DNA of 33,203 bases from positions 1 to 33,203 of IMG/VR virus record IMGVR_UViG_3300048927_000756; one strand, given 5' to 3'. Shown here piece by piece: positions 19,568-32,065 of this stretch (position 1 is its first letter; each line of letters starts with the position of its first letter). A program made the position numbers and the translations under genes. This DNA comes from a virus. The notes under the pieces are model-generated. The model made no database searches and was not told where the DNA came from. It was given only the letters and a program-made list of their open reading frames with translations.

Positions 19568-21280
19568 ATGAAAACAGCACTCGATCCCCGCACAGAAGCC
19601 AAAGCCCTCTACTGGCAGGCATACAGCATCCCGCAAATCGCCCAGCGACTCGGGGTGAAGGCGAACACGCTTTATTCCTGGCGCCGCCGCGACGAATGGG
19701 ACAAATCAACGCCCATCCAGCGGGCGCTTGAGCGCACCGATGTCCGCTATCTGCGGCTGATTGAGAAAGAGGATTTATCTGCCCACGACTTCAAGACGAT
19801 TGACCTGCTCGGGCGACAGCTGGCACGTCTCGCAAGGGATGAAAGGAAAGAGCAGGACAAAGAGCAGAAGAAGAAGACGCCGAAGAACCATTTCACGGCG
19901 GAGCAGATCACAGAGCTGCGCACACTGGTGCTGGAGTCGCTGTTTGAGCATCAGAAACGCTGGTACAAACAGCGCAACCTGCGTAACCGTTTCATTCTGA
20001 AAAGCCGCCAGATTGGCGCAAGCTGGTACTTTGCCCGCGAAGCGCTATTGCGTGCGCTGGAAACTGGCACTAACCAGATATTCCTGTCTGCATCACGTGC
20101 GCAGGCGTTCCAGTTCAAGAAATTCATTATTTTTCTGGCACGCAGCATCGGCGTTGAGCTGAAGGGCGGCGATGCGATCATTCTCTCAAACGGCGCAACG
20201 CTTTATTTTCTCGGCACCTCTGCGGCAACCGCGCAGTCATACACGGGTGACCTGTATTTCGATGAGGCGTTCTGGGTCGCTAACTTCCTGAACCTGCGTA
20301 AAGTCGCCGCCGGTATGGCAACGCAGGTAGGCCTGCGCCGCACCTATTTTTCCACCCCGTCAGGAGAAGAGCACGAAGCCTATAAATTCTGGAACGGCGA
20401 CCTGTACAACAAGGGCAAACCGAAGAGCAAGCAGGCGCAGATAGACCTGTCACACAAGGCGCTGAAGAACGGCGTACTGTGCGGTGACTACATCTGGCGT
20501 CAGATTGTCACCGTGCAGGACGTTATCGATCAGGGCTTCCCGCTCATCGACCTGGAAGAGATCCGCAGCGAAAACAGCGATGAGGATTTCGACAACCTCT
20601 ACATGTGTAAATTCGTCGTGGCCGGCGAACGCGCGTTTAACTACAACGCCCTGATTGGCTGTGGCGTAGATGGTTACAGCGGAATCTGGCCGGACTGGAA
20701 CCCTTACGCCCCGCGCCCACTCGCCAGCCGCCCGGTCTGGATTGGGTACGATCCCAACGGCAGCAGTGATAAAGGCGACAGCGCCGGCCTCGTCGTGCTC
20801 TCGCCACCACTGGTGCCCGGCGGCAAATTCCGCGTCATTGAACGTCACCAGCTGCGCGGCATGGAATTTGAAGAGCAGGCGAAATTTATTGAGCGCCTCA
20901 CCCGCATGTACAACGTGCAGCACATCGACATCGACGGCACCGGCATAGGCGCGGCAGTGCATCAACTGGTGCTGAAATTCTTCCCGGCAGCGCAAATGCA
21001 CCTTTACACCCCTGCGGTTAAACGCCAGCTGGTACTCAAGGCGCAGATGGTGATTCGCGCCGGCCGCTTCGAATACGACGCCGGCATGATGGATATCGTC
21101 AGCAGCTTTATGACCATCCGTAAATTCGTCACGCAGAGCGGCCAGACCTCTTACGCATCAGACCGTACACGCGGCAGCAGCCACGGTGACTTAGCCTGGG
21201 CAACGATGCACGCACTTATGAATGAACCGCTGGGCAATGATGCCGGCAGCGGCACAGAAAGCTTTGTTGAGGAATTTTGA
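19568..21280 (+). CDS. P: Terminase large subunit P (packaging ATPase)
   Basis: Protein of 570 aa (P2 P is 590 aa). Order: N-terminal helix-turn-helix (about 15-45, IPQIAQRLGVKANTLYSWRR), Walker A-like S-R-Q-I-G-A-S (146-152), Walker B L-Y-F-D-E (229-233), and a C-terminal RNase H-like nuclease region (I-G-Y-D-P-N at 392-397; IDIDGTGIGAA near 455). It drives DNA into the prohead. There is no convincing Shine-Dalgarno before ATG 19568 and an in-frame TAG 12 nt upstream rules out an earlier start. Q follows after 2 nt. Confidence 0.95.
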   Translation: MKTALDPRTEAKALYWQAYSIPQIAQRLGVKANTLYSWRRRDEWDKSTPIQRALERTDVRYLRLIEKEDLSAHDFKTIDLLGRQLARLARDERKEQDKEQKKKTPKNHFTAEQITELRTLVLESLFEHQKRWYKQRNLRNRFILKSRQIGASWYFAREALLRALETGTNQIFLSASRAQAFQFKKFIIFLARSIGVELKGGDAIILSNGATLYFLGTSAATAQSYTGDLYFDEAFWVANFLNLRKVAAGMATQVGLRRTYFSTPSGEEHEAYKFWNGDLYNKGKPKSKQAQIDLSHKALKNGVLCGDYIWRQIVTVQDVIDQGFPLIDLEEIRSENSDEDFDNLYMCKFVVAGERAFNYNALIGCGVDGYSGIWPDWNPYAPRPLASRPVWIGYDPNGSSDKGDSAGLVVLSPPLVPGGKFRVIERHQLRGMEFEEQAKFIERLTRMYNVQHIDIDGTGIGAAVHQLVLKFFPAAQMHLYTPAVKRQLVLKAQMVIRAGRFEYDAGMMDIVSSFMTIRKFVTQSGQTSYASDRTRGSSHGDLAWATMHALMNEPLGNDAGSGTESFVEEF

Positions 21281-21282
21281 CC

Positions 21283-22347
21283 ATGAGCCGCAGGAATAAA
21301 AAGACGTTCAGTAAACCCGCCATGCCAGCAAACAGCCAGTCTGCCGCAAAGATGGTCGAACCGGTTGAGGGGCTGGAATCGTTCAGCTTTGGTGAGCCCA
21401 CTGCCATCATGGATCAGCGTGACCTGCAAGACTGTATGGAGTGCGCCAACAATGGTCGCTGGTATGAACCGCCGATCAGTACCTACGGACTTGCCCGACT
21501 ACTGGCCGGCGCAGTGCACCATGAGTCGCCACTGGTCTTTAAACGCAATGTGATCATGTCATGCTTTAAACCGCACCCGATGCTTTCACGTCAGGATGCC
21601 AGCGCATTCGTGATGGATTACCTGGTGTTTGGTGATGCCTATCTTGAGCGGCGCGATAACCGCCTAGGTGAACCGCTGAAGCTTAAGCACTCGCTGGCGA
21701 AATACACGCGCCGTGGCGTAGACCTCGATCAGTACTGGTTTGTGACTTACTACCAGGAGGATTACGCTTTTGAGCCCGGCAAGGTGTTCCACCTGCGAAA
21801 CGCCAGCATCCACCAAGAGATTTACGGCGCGCCAGAATACATGTCCGCACTCCAGTCCATCATGTTGAACGGTGAGGCCACGCTGTTCCGCCGTAATTAC
21901 TACATCAACGGCAGTCACGCCGGGGTTATCGTTTACCTCACCGATCCCGTGGCAAATTCTGCAGACGTGGAAAAGCTGAAGCGATCACTGAAAGATGCGC
22001 GCGGTGGCGGCGCGTTTAAAAACCTGTTTGTGTATGCCGCAGGCGGTAAGAAGGACGGCTTACAAATCCTGCCGTTCAGTCAGATAGCGGCAAAAGATGA
22101 GTTCACAGGCATCAAAGACGCCACGCGTGATGACATGCTGGCCATCCACCGCGTACCGCCTCAGCTGATGGGCGTCATGCCCAACAATACCAGCGGCCTC
22201 GGTGACATTGTGAAGGCTGCCAGGGTGTTTGCGATCAACGAACTCTACCCGATCATGGAATCGCTGAAGGCAGTCAACGACTGGTTAGGCGTTGAGGTGT
22301 TCCAGTTCAACCCATATACCCTGGCTGAAGAGAAAGCCGGCGACTAA
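21283..22347 (+). CDS. Q: Portal protein Q
   Basis: Protein of 354 aa (P2 Q is 344 aa), PBSX/P2-type portal family: FKRNVIMSCFKPHPMLSR, FVMDYLVFGDAYLERRDN, VFHLRNASIHQEIYGAPEY and VPPQLMGVMPNNTSGLGD are typical. It forms the dodecameric vertex ring. I chose ATG 21283 (GAGGAATTTTGACC upstream); a TTG two codons earlier is possible but less likely. Co-transcribed with P. Confidence 0.96.
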   Translation: MSRRNKKTFSKPAMPANSQSAAKMVEPVEGLESFSFGEPTAIMDQRDLQDCMECANNGRWYEPPISTYGLARLLAGAVHHESPLVFKRNVIMSCFKPHPMLSRQDASAFVMDYLVFGDAYLERRDNRLGEPLKLKHSLAKYTRRGVDLDQYWFVTYYQEDYAFEPGKVFHLRNASIHQEIYGAPEYMSALQSIMLNGEATLFRRNYYINGSHAGVIVYLTDPVANSADVEKLKRSLKDARGGGAFKNLFVYAAGGKKDGLQILPFSQIAAKDEFTGIKDATRDDMLAIHRVPPQLMGVMPNNTSGLGDIVKAARVFAINELYPIMESLKAVNDWLGVEVFQFNPYTLAEEKAGD

Positions 22348-22527: not shown

Positions 22528-22546
22528 ACTGCTCCCCCGCCTCGCC
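22528..22546 (-). other. cos cohesive-end site
   Basis: On the minus strand this reads GGCGAGGCGGGGGAGCAGT. From memory the P2 cohesive end is GGCGAGGCGGGGAAAGCAC, so the first 12 bases match exactly and the rest differ by a small change. It lies downstream of Q, where P2 cos is. The nick positions are inferred. Confidence 0.8.
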
Positions 22547-22691
22547 CGCGCACAAAAATAGTGCCTTTTTTTGCACTTTTGCAGTGAACCGGAAACCGCG
22601 CCAGTGCTGGCCTAGAGCGGTATTTTCTAACGACAAATTATTGTTCAAATAAATTCATTTTATTGCAGTGATTTTATCACCCAACAATCCG

Positions 22692-24167
22692 TCAAGGATT
22701 GGGTTTATCAGCTTCAGGATTTGCTTTAGTTTTTACGCTTGTTTTCATTGCTTCAAGCATTTCTTTAAGCATCTCTGTCTGGACACCCTTGAGAAGTTTT
22801 ACCTCCTCATTTAGATTTTTGCGCTCAAGTGAATCCAATGGCGGCTTGTGCAATTCCTGAAGAACAGCAGAAACAAAAGAATCAACGCCATTAGGAGAGC
22901 TATTTTTTATTTCATTCCTGAAACTCACCATCGATAACGCCAACACTCTTTTATAGGCGTAATCCTCAATAATATGCTTTTGCTTAATATACTGTGTCGC
23001 ACAAAACCATAAACCACCCAGCAGAAGAGGAACTACGCTAAGTCTAGAGAAAATATAAATCATCTCCCCGCTTGAGTCATAACCTATTAACGCCCACATG
23101 CATACAACTACCGCAGCCAGTAATAATACACCACATGAGAATAGCCACCCCTTTACAGAGCCCTTTGATGAATTGTACTGATCATCATAAAACTTGCCCA
23201 ACGAAACAGTCCCGGAGAGGTTTAAAACAGTATTAGCCTGATTTATAAGTGCATTAGCCTCGGTAAGTTTTGAATCAAGAAACTCCTTAGCTTCAGATGC
23301 TTCTTTATTATTTGCTTCTGATATTTTCAGAAGTCTATCCAATTGCTTTCTGCTCAATTCAGCATCACTGGCTTCGGCTTCAGCTTTGTTCACAGCTATA
23401 GTCGCTTGGCTTTCCATGATGTGCATATGCTGAATGCGTTCTTCCCAATCATCAATTTTTTCTTGCAGCTTGCTGAGCTCCTCATTCACGACATTAGTAT
23501 CTTCTTGTATGGTTGCTTTCTGCTTATCAACCTCAGTTTTCAATGTAGTGATTTCACCCAGTATGTTACCAGCAGCTTCTTTCAAGACCTCAATTGAGTT
23601 TTTGAATTTTTTTGACTCGTCTAAGTTGCTGATAAAGTCAGATTGCAACCTCTCAATATAATGCAGGTTTTCATTTAATTTTTTATAGGCATCCCCACGA
23701 GCTTCGGACCCCTTATAAGCAAACGGGCGGAATAGTGGCTTTAGAAAATCCAACTGATCAGGAACTTCCTGCAAAGGCAAATCAACGTAAGGTCTCATTT
23801 GCTTTTCACGGACATTGATTGTTTGATTAGGATAACTAAATACAGATGAAACCTGTAAATCCTCTTTGACCCAAACATCGCTGTTATCCTCATCACTCAA
23901 AATACTGAGTGTCTTTTGATACAAATCCTCAATATTGTTTAAAGCTAGAGCAATGCTATCAATTTCACTCTCTGTAAAAAATGAAGTAAGTACAAAACTC
24001 CGACGATTAAAAGACAGAAATGTTGACTTCAATAACACTTGCGTCTCTTGCAGTGCCATTTTAATACTATATGAAGATGCTTCTTTATCTAAATCGAAAC
24101 CACATTTAATTAAATAACTTTGAACATTATCTTTTAAATTAAGTATATTTTGGATTGTCTCTTCCAT
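22692..24167 (-). CDS. Coiled-coil membrane protein in the tin/old slot (unknown, possible defence)
   Basis: Protein of 491 aa, not recognised. Residues 1-~160 are a helical soluble domain; about 165-315 is a long coiled coil; two transmembrane helices lie at about 340-362 and 369-392; the rest is a soluble helical tail. ATG 24167 follows GGTGGG; a longer frame to 24254 would cross the promoter. It is AT-rich compared with neighbours and has its own promoter (TATAAT at 24183-24188) overlapped by a palindrome. It lies between cos/Q and A, the slot where P2 carries tin and old and relatives carry other phage-exclusion genes. A role in superinfection exclusion or abortive infection is inference from place and build. 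Confidence 0.8.
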   Translation of the reverse strand: MEETIQNILNLKDNVQSYLIKCGFDLDKEASSYSIKMALQETQVLLKSTFLSFNRRSFVLTSFFTESEIDSIALALNNIEDLYQKTLSILSDEDNSDVWVKEDLQVSSVFSYPNQTINVREKQMRPYVDLPLQEVPDQLDFLKPLFRPFAYKGSEARGDAYKKLNENLHYIERLQSDFISNLDESKKFKNSIEVLKEAAGNILGEITTLKTEVDKQKATIQEDTNVVNEELSKLQEKIDDWEERIQHMHIMESQATIAVNKAEAEASDAELSRKQLDRLLKISEANNKEASEAKEFLDSKLTEANALINQANTVLNLSGTVSLGKFYDDQYNSSKGSVKGWLFSCGVLLLAAVVVCMWALIGYDSSGEMIYIFSRLSVVPLLLGGLWFCATQYIKQKHIIEDYAYKRVLALSMVSFRNEIKNSSPNGVDSFVSAVLQELHKPPLDSLERKNLNEEVKLLKGVQTEMLKEMLEAMKTSVKTKANPEADKPNP

Positions 24168-24182
24168 AAACCCACCAAACAA

Positions 24183-24188
24183 ATTATA
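24183..24188 (-). promoter_or_regulatory. -10 box for the coiled-coil membrane protein gene
   Basis: A perfect TATAAT on the minus strand, giving a start near 24176 and a leader of about 9 nt that contains the GGTGGG ribosome site. The -35 region, 17-18 nt upstream, is not TTGACA-like and lies inside the palindrome 24197-24218, so transcription may depend on or be blocked by a protein bound there. Confidence 0.55.
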
Positions 24189-24196
24189 AAAGCAGC

Positions 24197-24218
24197 GTAT
24201 TAGGATTAATCCTAATAC
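24197..24218. promoter_or_regulatory. Perfect 22-bp palindrome (operator candidate)
   Basis: GTATTAGGATT followed directly by AATCCTAATAC: a perfect inverted repeat of 11 bp with no loop, the shape of a dimer-binding operator. It overlaps the -35 position of the promoter. A near copy of its core (TTAGGAATAATCCT) is at 24671-24684. Confidence 0.6.
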
Positions 24219-24269
24219 ACTACAACAATAACAATTAGCATGGAAGAACAACAATAACCGGATGTTAAC

Positions 24270-24578
24270 TCAATGATATCTATATGTATTCGATTTCTTT
24301 TCAGATGATCGTTGGCTGAGGCTAGGCATTCCATCACCGGGGGAGAGAGGGGCTATTTGAATCAAAACAGTTTCTGGCTCATCACAACACTCAGATACTT
24401 TATTGATGCAAACTGTGTACACATCTTGTGTAACTCCTTTGAAAGTACAACTAATACGTAGATGATCGCCAGTTTCTGGCATCATGTAACCTTCAAAATT
24501 CAGGAACATCTCGGTAATCAGACCCATACGTATGCGCCCGAAAGTATCAGGCCCGTAATTCGTATCGTAGATTTTCAT
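24270..24578 (-). CDS. Hypothetical protein, 102 aa
   Basis: Not recognised. The N-terminal ~75 residues look like a small beta-rich domain (MKIYDTNYGPDTFGRIRMGL, DHLRISCTF, DVYTVCINKV, ETVLIQIAPL), then a polar Ser/Lys/His tail. Cys residues at about 44, 57, 64 and 65 are not in a clear zinc pattern. It has no signal or membrane segment. The ribosome site before ATG is weak, but a sigma70-like promoter (24616-24644) lies just upstream, which supports expression. A run of seven C on the coding strand lies about 13 nt before the start. It shares the slot and the palindrome motif with the downstream membrane protein gene, so the two may be a module. Confidence 0.55.
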   Translation of the reverse strand: MKIYDTNYGPDTFGRIRMGLITEMFLNFEGYMMPETGDHLRISCTFKGVTQDVYTVCINKVSECCDEPETVLIQIAPLSPGDGMPSLSQRSSEKKSNTYRYH

Positions 24579-24615
24579 CGGAATGTCGCCGGGGGGGCGG
24601 GTTGGACTCAGCTAC

Positions 24616-24644
24616 GGTATAGCGGGGAAATTGAAAACGTTCAA
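24616..24644 (-). promoter_or_regulatory. Sigma70-like promoter upstream of the 102-aa gene
   Basis: On the minus strand: TTGAAC, exactly 17 nt, then TATACC. A start near 24609 would give a leader of about 30 nt to the ATG at 24578. Confidence 0.55.
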
Positions 24645-24670
24645 CCTTACCGCATTCTAAGCGAACCCAT

Positions 24671-24684
24671 TTAGGAATAATCCT
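24671..24684. promoter_or_regulatory. Near copy of the palindromic operator core
   Basis: TTAGGAATAATCCT matches the core TTAGGATTAATCCT of the palindrome at 24200-24213 with one change. It is about 27 nt upstream of the -35 box of the 102-aa gene promoter. The shared motif suggests the two accessory genes answer to one regulator (inference). Confidence 0.45.
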
Positions 24685-24724
24685 CAAAGATTAGCGCCAT
24701 CCGCACTAGCATTCATCCGCCGTT

Positions 24725-24790
24725 CTCTTCCGCTTACTCGCCCGACAGACTCGCGTTGCTCGCTAATCGGCGCTGCGTGGAGCGGTTTCA
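24725..24790. other. Sequence resembling the DNA beside ColE1-type plasmid origins
   Basis: In the noncoding gap 24579-24869, this stretch starts CTCTTCCGCTTACTCGC, continues through GACTCGC and ends GGAGCGGTTTCA. From memory it aligns along its whole length with the CTCTTCCGCTTCCTCGC... GCGAGCGGTATCA segment upstream of pBR322/ColE1 origins, with scattered substitutions. An 8-bp inverted repeat, GATTAGCG (24689-24696) and CGCTAATC (24761-24768), overlaps it. A role in lagging-strand priming or transfer is speculation. I see no gene in this gap. Confidence 0.4.
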
Positions 24791-24869: not shown

Positions 24870-25340
24870 TCATTCAGATGATTTTCTTTGCTGTAAAACC
24901 TCCCAAAAAAGTGACACTAACTCTTCCTGGCTAATAGCCACATGCTCACCATTGTCGTACTGCTCAATAAGCTCATAAATACGCTCAGATGGCACGCCCT
25001 CTAAATTCGACTCAACAGGCTTAGACTGGGACACCGCAGAGGCTTCAGATTGATTTTCTGAATGCCATTTGTCCTCGGCCAGCTTCGTCAACCTAAGCCA
25101 CTCCGCATAGCGTTCCGATTGCCGCTGGCCCGCGAATTCATCTGTCTTATCAATATGATTCTGAGATGGCTCCCTCTCACTTGGAATCAGCGATTCAACG
25201 CCCTTACACTTGCAGCACACCCGGTCTGAAAAGTGAAATTTCTCCATGTAATCCAACTCATTGCCACATTGCCGACAACGTTTAATTTTATTGCTTATAA
25301 AGTAATCTGATTGCTGCTCTCTGCGCTCTTTGTCAAACAT
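24870..25340 (-). CDS. Zinc-ribbon protein downstream of A
   Basis: Protein of 156 aa, not recognised by name. An N-terminal zinc ribbon is clear: C-R-Q-C at about residues 21-24 and C-C-K-C-K at about 41-45, separated by an aromatic segment. The middle is polar and probably disordered; the C-terminus (about 125-150) is helical and acidic. ATG 25340 has an AGGTAAGAG ribosome site that includes the A stop codon; the longer frame to 25454 overlaps A and is not needed. It starts 4 nt after the A stop, in the place of P2 orf91, and is probably translated from the same early message. Confidence 0.75.
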   Translation of the reverse strand: MFDKERREQQSDYFISNKIKRCRQCGNELDYMEKFHFSDRVCCKCKGVESLIPSEREPSQNHIDKTDEFAGQRQSERYAEWLRLTKLAEDKWHSENQSEASAVSQSKPVESNLEGVPSERIYELIEQYDNGEHVAISQEELVSLFWEVLQQRKSSE

Positions 25341-25344
25341 GCTC

Positions 25345-27813
25345 TTACCTCTGCATACCTTCACCGAATAGCCTTTCCCATGCAGATGGGTCAACCTGCT
25401 GAAGCATCTTCGCATAATTTCCGACAGGGTCATGCCTAATACTGGCACTATCAATATTGTGCACAGATTTCATATGGCTCCATAAACCATTGGCTTTACT
25501 ACCATCACTATCATCTTCTCTGCATCTTAATTCACAGTTATGAGTGGCAGAGACAATTTTTCCATCAATCCGCATTTCTCCCCCGGATAGCAGAACATGC
25601 AACTGCCCATTACTCAAATCCAACCCAACTGATTTGGCAAAATCCCCTAGTTGCCGAACCTTCGGATCAACCTCTACCAAGCCTAAAGGTGTGGCGCGGC
25701 GTTCTCTATCATCATTTTTTTCATCTCGAACCTGTGCTGTCAGCCTGCGATTTATTTCTCTCCGATCTTTGCGGCTCAGTGTCTCAAAGTTTATAGCCAC
25801 CACGTCACTTACTGGCGCATTAACCAACTCATTCGTGCCCACCTGATCTTGAAAAACCACCCTTGAAATAGGCGATTTTTCTTCCTGTAACGGCTCCCGC
25901 GTACAGTTATTGACAGAACTCCGAGGGGCGGCGATGCCGCCTGAAATGTCAAAAGCCTCATCCGAGTCGGTCTTTTGTTTGGGCACTATTTTGTAATCAG
26001 TGGTGCGGGTGTAAATGGTTGAATTAAGAGAAAACGGAGAGTAAACGCCGCTGATACGGCTGACGGTGTCTCCATAGTCATTACCATTTTCTGTCATTTC
26101 ATAGCTGAGACGCACGCGAAGGAGATCACGCGGAACTAATGGCCCACCCTGCGCCTGCGTATATCCAAACCAGTCATATCCGCCCGCAGCTTCCTGAGCA
26201 GGTTTTATCTCCGGATGCAGAACAAGATCGCGATCACGCAAACGGCCAAGCTCACGATAAACTGTCACCGGAGCACCGCCGATCTGCTGAAATTGGCGGA
26301 TACGCCAGCGCGACGCCCAGGCACACACGCGCTTCGCCATATCCTTCAACTCTTCGCCGGTTTCGTCATCCTTTTCACCATCAAGTGCATAGCCATCGAT
26401 ATTTTTGGAGATGTATTTAGCGATGTATCCAGTTGCAGAACCAAACTCTTCGTCCATAGGCTTAACTTTAAAACGTGCTTCTGCCGCCCCTTTTTCGTGA
26501 CCATCAACCTTAAGTGCATATTTACGGAAAATGGCGCGAGCCTGCTCAATATGTTCGGGCATGAAAAACAGCAGCAGGTGCCAGTGAGGCGTAGCATCGT
26601 GATGAGGCTCAGTAACCCTAAAGCCAAAAGTGCGAATACCTTTACGAGCCCATGCAGCGCGAACCTTTGACCATACTTTGCATAGATAACGCTGGGTTTC
26701 GCGCGGATTAGCAGACTGATATTTATTATTGCGCTTACCGCTTACCTGCATTGCGTGATATCTGGAGGGTGCAGTCAGCGTGTAGAAATCACCAACCATG
26801 CCCTGAGCTTTTGCCAAATCCTCAAAGCCGCGCATTCTGACCATCAGCTCAGCGCGACGTACAGCAGGATTAGCAACGCTACCGTCTACCTTATCAGCCA
26901 GTGATGTACGATCCCCCGTTGCCTGATCCTCCAACTCCATGGCATTCAGGAATTCACGATTCGCGCGTTTTTGGGCTACCCACTCGTTGAGCACCTGCCC
27001 ACTGCAATATGGTGCCGCTTTCTTATGCACATAACCTGACGCGATCATCAAATGCTCACGCCACTGGTCATGTAACTTGCGCAGGCGGCGCATCCACCAT
27101 GATGATGATTCAATACGCGCGGCGGCTGATAATGCCTCTTCTGCGGTAAGCTCTTCGGCGCAGTAACGCTGCCAGCCTGGCGCAGTCATTTTCAAATGAG
27201 AGATCAGCCAGGCCGCACGACCGTAACCGGACAAAATAGAAAATTCGGCATCACCGTGTTTTTCCATTTGCAGGTTGGTTTCATTTATCAGCTCGTTAGT
27301 TAATTTATCGGCCAGCAGATATGAGAGTTTTTTCAGCTCTCGCTTTCCCGCCCAAGGAATACGGTAAAAATCACTGCGGAACTCAATGAGCGCAGGGGGC
27401 ATTTCGCCGTCAGGCTGATACTGCTGGTTAACGGCATCTACACGAGGAAGAACAAAGCGGCCAAACGAGCTTTTAAGCCAATGAGCCGCTTTTTTCTTAC
27501 CCTGTTTTTCTTCGATCTCAGTGAGCTTTTGCGCATAAAAGCGCCGAATATATTGCGGAAGCGCTTGCAGGCGACGTCGTAAAACACGCTCTTCCTGATC
27601 GCGCTCAGGGCGCTGACCGAAAAGGTCAAAAAGCTCAACCGATCGTGACTCACCATCATGCCGATAACGAATTACACCCGGAGTTCGGTCAACGGCAAAA
27701 TCTTCAGAATCTCTGGATGCATTCCATGCATAAGCCCCGGCAGGCTCTGGCGCTTTGCCGGGGTAAGGAGGTGGCGGTGTTGGGGCAATTCTGCCGCGAT
27801 TTATTTCTGTCAT
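25345..27813 (-). CDS. A: Replication initiation endonuclease A
   Basis: Protein of 822 aa (P2 A is 761 aa), phage replication protein gpA family, which nicks the phage origin in its own gene and stays bound to the 5' end for rolling-circle replication. It shows the HUH motif with H404-H405 and P-H410-W-H412-L-L-L-F, and the two-tyrosine motif Y463-I-A-K-Y467, with the same 4-residue spacing as the P2 active tyrosines 450 and 454. The N-terminus has a Pro-rich stretch. It acts on its own DNA (cis) in P2. It overlaps the 57-aa gene upstream by ATGA. Confidence 0.95.
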   Translation of the reverse strand: MTEINRGRIAPTPPPPYPGKAPEPAGAYAWNASRDSEDFAVDRTPGVIRYRHDGESRSVELFDLFGQRPERDQEERVLRRRLQALPQYIRRFYAQKLTEIEEKQGKKKAAHWLKSSFGRFVLPRVDAVNQQYQPDGEMPPALIEFRSDFYRIPWAGKRELKKLSYLLADKLTNELINETNLQMEKHGDAEFSILSGYGRAAWLISHLKMTAPGWQRYCAEELTAEEALSAAARIESSSWWMRRLRKLHDQWREHLMIASGYVHKKAAPYCSGQVLNEWVAQKRANREFLNAMELEDQATGDRTSLADKVDGSVANPAVRRAELMVRMRGFEDLAKAQGMVGDFYTLTAPSRYHAMQVSGKRNNKYQSANPRETQRYLCKVWSKVRAAWARKGIRTFGFRVTEPHHDATPHWHLLLFFMPEHIEQARAIFRKYALKVDGHEKGAAEARFKVKPMDEEFGSATGYIAKYISKNIDGYALDGEKDDETGEELKDMAKRVCAWASRWRIRQFQQIGGAPVTVYRELGRLRDRDLVLHPEIKPAQEAAGGYDWFGYTQAQGGPLVPRDLLRVRLSYEMTENGNDYGDTVSRISGVYSPFSLNSTIYTRTTDYKIVPKQKTDSDEAFDISGGIAAPRSSVNNCTREPLQEEKSPISRVVFQDQVGTNELVNAPVSDVVAINFETLSRKDRREINRRLTAQVRDEKNDDRERRATPLGLVEVDPKVRQLGDFAKSVGLDLSNGQLHVLLSGGEMRIDGKIVSATHNCELRCREDDSDGSKANGLWSHMKSVHNIDSASIRHDPVGNYAKMLQQVDPSAWERLFGEGMQR

Positions 27814-31449: not shown

Positions 31450-31469
31450 GTCTGAGATCTGGAACGATG
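31450..31469. promoter_or_regulatory. C operator candidate O2
   Basis: Second copy of the 20-bp repeat; its last three bases are the C start codon (31467-31469), so bound repressor could also block the C transcript start or ribosome access. This leaves C with only a weak GGA site 4 nt before the ATG. Confidence 0.6.
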
Positions 31470-31757
31470 TCAACAGCGTATGGAAAGAAATTAAGATTAA
31501 TCCGTATTGCGGAGGGGCTAACCCAGATGCAACTTCGTGATTTAACAGGGATTGGACTCAGCACCATTAAAAACTACGAAACTGGGAGAGAGGTAGGCTT
31601 AAGCATCATTGAAAAGATGTGCGCACACCCTCGGTTTCAAAAATACGTTTTATGGCTGATGACGGGTGAAACCGCGATACGTGCTGGACAAGTCGCCCCA
31701 AAAGGTGCTGAAGATTTAAACGACGAGGGCGATAACGCCGATGCTGCTAATCAGTAG
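31467..31757 (+). CDS. C: C-type repressor 1 (HTH, P2 C-like)
   Basis: Protein of 96 aa (P2 C is 99 aa). HTH of the XRE type at about 12-40 (TQMQLRDLTGIGLSTIKNYETGRE) followed by the P2 C-like dimer region FQKYVLWLMTGETAIRAGQVAP. It would repress the early promoter and keep lysogeny. Its start codon lies in operator repeat O2. It is followed after 35 nt by a second, related repressor and then int, as in the P2 C-int operon. Confidence 0.85.
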   Translation: MSTAYGKKLRLIRIAEGLTQMQLRDLTGIGLSTIKNYETGREVGLSIIEKMCAHPRFQKYVLWLMTGETAIRAGQVAPKGAEDLNDEGDNADAANQ

Positions 31758-31792
31758 CCTCGTTAATAAATCCGGTACTTTTGGGAGTTCAA

Positions 31793-32065
31793 ATGACTCA
31801 GGACTATGGAAATAAAATACGCGCCATCAGGATGGCCGAAGGGATCACACAAACCGCGATGGCTAAAGAGTGCAACATCGCTTTAAGTAGTCTGAGAAAC
31901 ATTGAATCAGGCGGTGATGGCGTCGGCCTTAAAACGATTGAGAGGATTGTTCGCACAGCAAGATTCGAGAAGTACACATTATGGATGATGATCGGCAAAA
32001 CCACTGAAGCAGCCGGCCAGATATCGCCGGCTCTCACACACAGTGGGCCAGAAAAAACAGAGTAA
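31793..32065 (+). CDS. C-type repressor 2 (HTH, P2 C-like)
   Basis: Protein of 90 aa from ATG 31793 (GGGAG upstream; the TTG at 31781 is a poorer start). HTH at about 10-38 (TQTAMAKECNIALSSLRNIESG), then FEKYTLWMMIGKTTEAAGQISPALTHSG, which is closer to the C-terminal part of P2 C (KYTLWFM, ESGQIAPALAH) than repressor 1 is. The two are similar in length and build and probably arose by duplication or by acquiring a second immunity gene. There is no separate promoter in the 35-nt gap. Confidence 0.85.
   Translation: MTQDYGNKIRAIRMAEGITQTAMAKECNIALSSLRNIESGGDGVGLKTIERIVRTARFEKYTLWMMIGKTTEAAGQISPALTHSGPEKTE

Follow-up and report, generated by a model that had tools for sequence, protein, structure and literature searches.

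P2-like phages carry, beside cos and between replication gene A and portal gene Q, a slot whose single- or few-gene cargo is exchanged between related phages, and this position is shared by the P2 genes old and tin and by the A-Q hotspot systems. In E. coli, 1,650 gene arrangements have been counted in the A-Q slot and several of its systems have been proven (Rousset et al. 2022, PMC9122126), and four of the systems of Vassallo et al. (2022, PMC9519451) sit at the same position; both hotspot surveys covered E. coli. In the P2-like phage AC1, a TIR gene is combined with two membrane proteins (Rousset et al. 2022). Among the defence-related proteins with a similar build, the Pfam families SLATT_1 and SLATT_5 lie in defence neighbourhoods and have a helical tail after a two-transmembrane (two-TM) hairpin, and Zorya ZorA, Druantia DruC, and JetC have a long coiled coil. 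Here, we analysed the whole of a virus record of 33203 bases from a P2-like phage (the window), which carries a gene for a 491-aa membrane protein in the A-Q slot. We found no sequence relation between this protein and Old, Tin, or the PADLOC hotspot systems. The likeness to the AC1 system is one of description, namely a membrane protein in the same slot; however, the window lacks a TIR gene in its slot, although a distant member of the family described below lies near a TIR-like gene.

Two adjacent genes, of 491 and 102 aa, had been predicted on the minus strand of this slot, and both ORFs are present there (Table 1). The slot itself had been equated with the P2 tin/old phage-exclusion site, which agrees with its place between A and Q, the presence of the P2 cos core, and the published anti-phage hotspot. 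The ORF of the 491-aa gene runs upstream to a TTG; we took the ATG at 24167 as its start because a 42%-identical homologue (in genome G215) can be aligned with the protein from the first residue to the last. The gene had been called AT-rich relative to its surroundings, and its GC content is indeed 37.6%, against 52.6% for the window; that of the 102-aa gene is 41.1%. Both genes had also been credited with promoters of their own, and these stay putative, since promoter-like matches occurred at chance level (9 observed versus 6.7 +/- 3.0 in shuffled sequences). The palindrome just upstream of the 491-aa gene could be either an operator or a terminator stem. With up to three mismatches, TTAGGATTAATCCTAA was matched at three places (24194–24221, 24671–24686, and 31491–31506; 0.1 expected), and the sites upstream of the 491-aa and 102-aa genes may be operators for one regulator.

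Table 1. Features of the A-Q slot of the window and segments of the 491-aa protein
Feature	Position	Strand	Basis or remark
Portal gene Q, slot anchor	21277..22347	+	98% amino-acid identity to L004 despite differing slot content
P2 cos core GGCGAGGCGGGG, Q-side slot border	22535..22546	-	Also in P2 and relatives
Exchanged cassette	22615..24354	.	No DNA similarity to sister phage L004
491-aa gene, defence candidate: coiled-coil, two-TM membrane protein	22692..24167	-	Full-length 42%-identity homologue in the A-Q slot of another P2-like prophage
Residues 401–406, EDYAYK (near-invariant E-x-Y-x-x-K)	22950..22967	-	Family alignments
Residues 343–390, two-helix membrane hairpin with short acidic loop	22998..23141	-	Hydropathy; C-terminal domain model, mean pLDDT 82
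Residues 157–340, long helix / coiled coil	23148..23699	-	Continuous helices in model, low confidence over 157–240
Residues 1–150, variable helical head	23718..24167	-	AlphaFold model of A5, pLDDT about 60–89 over residues 1–90; poorly conserved in family
Near-perfect 28-nt palindrome with TTAGGATTAATCCTAA core, just upstream of 491-aa gene, then TATAAT on minus strand	24194..24221	.	
102-aa gene, conserved slot-border resident of this phage lineage	24270..24578	-	
Conserved non-coding stretch upstream of 102-aa gene, with AGGATTATTCCT-like palindrome near 24671–24686	24582..24790	.	
Replication gene A, slot anchor	25345..27813	-	

When the window was compared with its sister phage L004, DNA similarity was 95.7% up to position 22614, absent from there to 24354, and 76% over 24355–24790; L005 showed the same pattern with a left border at 22582. 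Because the similarity to L004 ends at 22614 and restarts at 24355, the swapped piece takes in the 491-aa gene but no more than the 3′ end of its 102-aa neighbour. The 491-aa gene accordingly has the properties of A-Q cargo, since it lies between A and Q, by cos, and is swapped among related phages. The slots of sister phages contain defence families known to PADLOC, namely KAP/PDC-S20 in L004 and L035, and PD-Lambda-2_C/beta with cll in L005; in one of these phages, the slot cargo is related to systems whose action has been proven.

Further genes of A-Q slots and of the window were also noted. The slot of L004 (L004:5619-6632) encodes a two-TM protein of 337 aa, whose C-terminal half may be nuclease-like and which has no Pfam or PADLOC match. 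Three Photorhabdus P2-like prophages (L012, L013, and L015) have in common an unrelated membrane protein of 264–272 aa in the A-Q slot, which, in the one member tested, has no Pfam or PADLOC match. Directly downstream of A in the window lies a 156-aa frame (24873-25340) with a CxxC...CxxC zinc-ribbon-like stretch and no Pfam match, and a short protein after A in the Photorhabdus prophage L013 resembles it. Two small HTH genes that resemble each other in sequence (31467-31757 and 31781-32065) stand in tandem before the integrase gene, where P2 has a single C repressor, and direct repeats of the form TCTGAGAT-N-TGGAAC lie just upstream of them.

The original prediction had treated the 491-aa and 102-aa genes as a two-gene module, and the two are adjacent, on the same strand, both AT-rich, and preceded by related palindromes. 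The 102-aa ORF is a true gene, as indicated by its dN of 0.19 and dS of about 2.8 relative to the L004 homologue. Its product matches no Pfam model, which rules out its identity with P2 orf91, a DUF3850 protein. L004, L005, and an Erwinia rhapontici prophage (L010) encode relatives of the protein, each in the A-Q slot of a P2-like phage; about 200 bases of similar DNA precede the gene in L004 and L005, with a AGGATTATTCCT-like palindrome that also occurs in L010. The cargo beside the gene differs in each of these four phages, the 491-aa gene of the window being replaced by a KAP NTPase gene in L004, by a Beta-family and cll-type pair in L005, and by a 247-aa gene in L010. Only 1 of 395 Enterobacterales species genomes (G001) was matched by the 102-aa profile, and it is not among the genomes with a 491-family member; conversely, the 102-aa gene is absent from G215, which carries the full-length 491-aa homologue. 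The two-gene module is contradicted by this varied cargo, by the cassette border that falls within the 102-aa gene near its 3′ end, and by the lack of any recurrence of the pair in the loci examined, and we now regard a system formed by the two proteins as extremely improbable. Judged from these comparisons, the 102-aa gene is resident at the slot border of this phage lineage and not a partner of the 491-aa gene. It had been argued beforehand that a defence system would be refuted if homologues of the 491-aa protein always occurred without the 102-aa gene in unrelated contexts. Half of this was observed, in that the family lacks the gene in every other locus examined and the gene is found with other cargo.

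The predicted build of the 491-aa protein, a soluble head, a long coil, two TM helices, and a soluble tail, was borne out by both hydropathy and structure models. Hydrophobic helices at residues 343–361 and 372–390 are followed by the soluble tail, and the full-length model is all-helical, at low confidence (pLDDT 65). The loop of the hairpin is acidic and without K or R, whereas its flanks bear K/R, so that the head and tail are expected to point to the cytoplasm. From hydropathy and charge, the protein is probably an inner-membrane protein with its head, coil, and tail in the cytoplasm. No enzymatic domain or known fold match was found for it. Fold searches that included the PDB gave nothing significant for either the full model or the C-terminal domain (pLDDT 82), and VIA-align returned only helical hairpins and coils with Z of about 9–10, which is common for such shapes. 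Three viral models named SLATT appeared in the Foldseek list for the low-confidence full model, at E-values of 0.12–0.81.

The 491-aa protein belongs to a family that we define here by a TM hairpin, the motif E-x-Y-x-x-K, and a following proline, and that we call the EDYAYK family; the protein shows all of these features. A single-sequence search matched the C-terminal part to a Microcystis phage record (E-value 1e-9) and to Acinetobacter plasmids (E-value 2e-3), and a search of 395 Enterobacterales genomes yielded the full-length homologue in G215, with 42% identity, together with more distant ones. Alignments built from these homologues retrieved 18 viral loci. No relatives came from pattern scans that used only P0001, in contrast to the alignments and whole-genome searches. 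At an E-value of 1e-10, 26 of the 395 Enterobacterales genomes were matched, with the motif visible in about 21, and the family profile matched 6/398 genomes in a search of the whole phylum. For comparison, SLATT_1 and SLATT_5 were found within Enterobacterales in 3/149 and 1/149, respectively. In the 12-member and 18-member alignments (A4, A5, and A6), E401, Y403, K406, and P443 do not vary. The core can be aligned across 39 distinct sequences, with a few variants such as EEYTHK. Nearly all members also have the same build, and the order of elements in their common core is [AG]LA-x-aF near the first TM helix, the TM hairpin, QY, EDYAYK, and the later proline; the hairpin is present in nearly all members, and its loop is poor in K/R. 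Within the L043–L047 group, identity to the window protein is 33–41% in the core, compared with 22–26% overall, which indicates that the head and coil vary most. Weaker profile matches (L078, L080, and L085), in which the motif is absent and which may be coiled-coil noise, were left out of the counts.

The original prediction had not recognised the protein, and searches of Pfam, NCBIfam, and PADLOC gave no family match for any member beyond weak, mostly coiled-coil, matches, and the family is unnamed in PHROGs. PHROG 34659 and PHROG 30912, both listed without function, were matched by 12 and 11 of the 18 members, respectively (best E-values of 7e-85 and 8e-98), although the window protein itself reaches neither. 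We also found no paper on the family in the literature searched, outside whose scope lie most subscription journals and bioRxiv preprints not in PMC, and none of the protein and PHROG identifiers tried there led to the family. Papers that matched the letters EDYAYK treat other subjects; in these, the letters are presumably an author's surname. The matches to JetC, DruC, ZorA, SMC, Rad50, and chemoreceptors are confined to the coil and were therefore rejected as homology; those to ZorA, DruC, and JetC are weak profile matches covering only residues 141–316, and the catalytic and MotA-type parts of these proteins are absent. Assignment to SLATT was likewise not supported by sequence: none of the 18 members matched a Pfam SLATT model at an E-value of 0.01, hhalign gave SLATT_1 a probability of 13% against a small four-sequence set, and the EDYAYK motif is absent from the SLATT sequences seen.

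Neighbours had been proposed as a means of judging a defence role, and homologues were indeed found inside BREX operons and next to OLD/UvrD, type I RM, TIR-like, and KAP genes. We counted the neighbourhoods by hand, with no random genes as a control and with several neighbours named by eye, and because many loci were drawn from viral contigs, prophage settings are favoured by construction. Three P2-like prophages carry a member in the A-Q slot: the window, G215/L042, in which a KAP gene adjoins, and G558/L122, whose Q is 50% identical and whose member is distant (482 aa, with the variant REYAHK) and close to genes named by eye as TIR-like and DGQHR-type. In seven P2/186-like prophages, the member is linked to a repressor gene and is followed in several by an integrase gene; it lies on the same strand about 30–150 bp downstream of a CI or S24-type repressor in L045, L047, L048, L049, L057, and L040, and downstream on the same strand with one gene between in L043/L044. 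Other phage settings include the Providencia phage PSTCR8lys and a filamentous-phage region that contains a zot gene. Elsewhere, members lie between UvrD-type helicase and OLD-family nuclease genes (G698/L121), near type I RM genes and an integrase gene, the latter named by eye (G451/L120), and beside a MazEF-like pair, also by eye (L041), and a minority are in chromosomal places without evident defence genes. We dropped the idea that L003 and L121 have a helicase partner in common, since the alignment of their helicases did not rise above noise.

Two further associations recurred. In two prophages, one and the same pair of genes (L049:8699-10103 and L106:11716-13108), for a protein of about 350 aa and an ASCH-like protein of 123–124 aa, lies near the family gene, and distant members of the EEYTHK subfamily in two genomes (L098:9374-10942 and L100:9271-10830) adjoin a recD-like gene, named by eye.

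On 24 Acinetobacter plasmids (L006:5065-6435 and 23 others), the BREX type 1 operon also carries a family ORF, as an eighth, unnamed gene between pglX and pglZ. In the four regions read, the ORF overlaps each of these two genes by 4 bp; for most of the remaining plasmids, the match likewise overlaps an annotated pglX or pglZ. No such eighth ORF between the two genes appears in the BREX papers searched. As the ORF is an extra one on the Acinetobacter plasmids and no BREX gene is present in the slot of the window, the family is not a core BREX subunit. These overlaps, the place between UvrD-type helicase and OLD genes, and the adjoining KAP gene in G215 would all suit an accessory or scaffold subunit that aids such systems at the membrane and does not act alone. 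However, neither the window nor most of the prophages contain such a partner, and the seven-gene BREX of Acinetobacter 394 restricts phage without the ORF (PMC9122589), which makes this role quite unlikely.

Superinfection exclusion at entry, in which the protein would block genome injection or another membrane step and the host would not be killed, fits the membrane hairpin, the lysogen-type positions downstream of repressors, and the single-gene cargo. Known superinfection exclusion proteins are mostly small, whereas most of this protein is predicted to be cytoplasmic, with a long coil, and its presence in BREX operons fits an intracellular role better; we therefore consider entry exclusion unlikely. 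A lysogenic conversion gene with a membrane, stress, or host-fitness function in place of a defence role would be consistent with the lack of an enzymatic or known defence domain and with the members outside defence loci, and prophages carry such genes at these positions too. The BREX, OLD/UvrD, type I RM, and hotspot settings nevertheless occur in independent lineages, and we rate this explanation as very unlikely.

Taken together, a defence gene expressed in the lysogen is the best reading, given that members occur within BREX operons, next to genes of the OLD/UvrD, type I RM, TIR-like, and KAP kinds, and directly downstream of prophage repressors. A defence or exclusion role of some kind is quite probable for the 491-aa gene. 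The narrower proposal, that this cargo gene encodes a phage-defence protein which works by itself at the membrane, is slightly favoured on the basis of genomic context, and we present it as a candidate. Of the original prediction of an undescribed defence system, the undescribed family and the defence contexts are thus retained, and the pairing with the 102-aa gene is given up.

As for its action, the conserved hairpin core as opposed to the variable heads, the lysogen-type positions, and the repeated linkage to defence loci point to a membrane effector, a mechanism to which we give a little less than an even chance. The lysogen would make the 491-aa protein, in which the conserved hairpin, with the juxtamembrane helix containing EDYAYK, bears a variable head and coil. 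The head and coil may detect a cue of the infecting phage, after which oligomers would rearrange and the hairpin and EDYAYK helix would damage or depolarise the inner membrane, perhaps by forming a pore. The resulting abortive infection would spare neighbouring cells, and the 491-aa protein would act without the 102-aa protein. A broader proposal, which is possible but doubtful, is that the EDYAYK hairpin is an undescribed membrane effector module common to stand-alone prophage exclusion genes and to an accessory subunit of some BREX operons, so that swappable heads would set the sensing and BREX and prophages would use the same executor.

The EDYAYK family is undescribed, although it is not a categorically new kind of system. 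Among 5,426 E. coli genomes, the only DNA match to this region of the window was one 104-bp stretch on the cos side in 1 genome; these genomes yielded no DNA relative of the gene, and as E. coli was the basis of the hotspot surveys, this may explain why the family was missed. A nameless conserved membrane domain is present in about 5% of the sampled Enterobacterales species, mostly in prophages and defence loci. To our knowledge, the way in which BREX stops phages is still not settled, and the family raises the question of what role a membrane protein has inside a BREX operon. If it is protective, it would add a membrane-effector family to prophage immunity.
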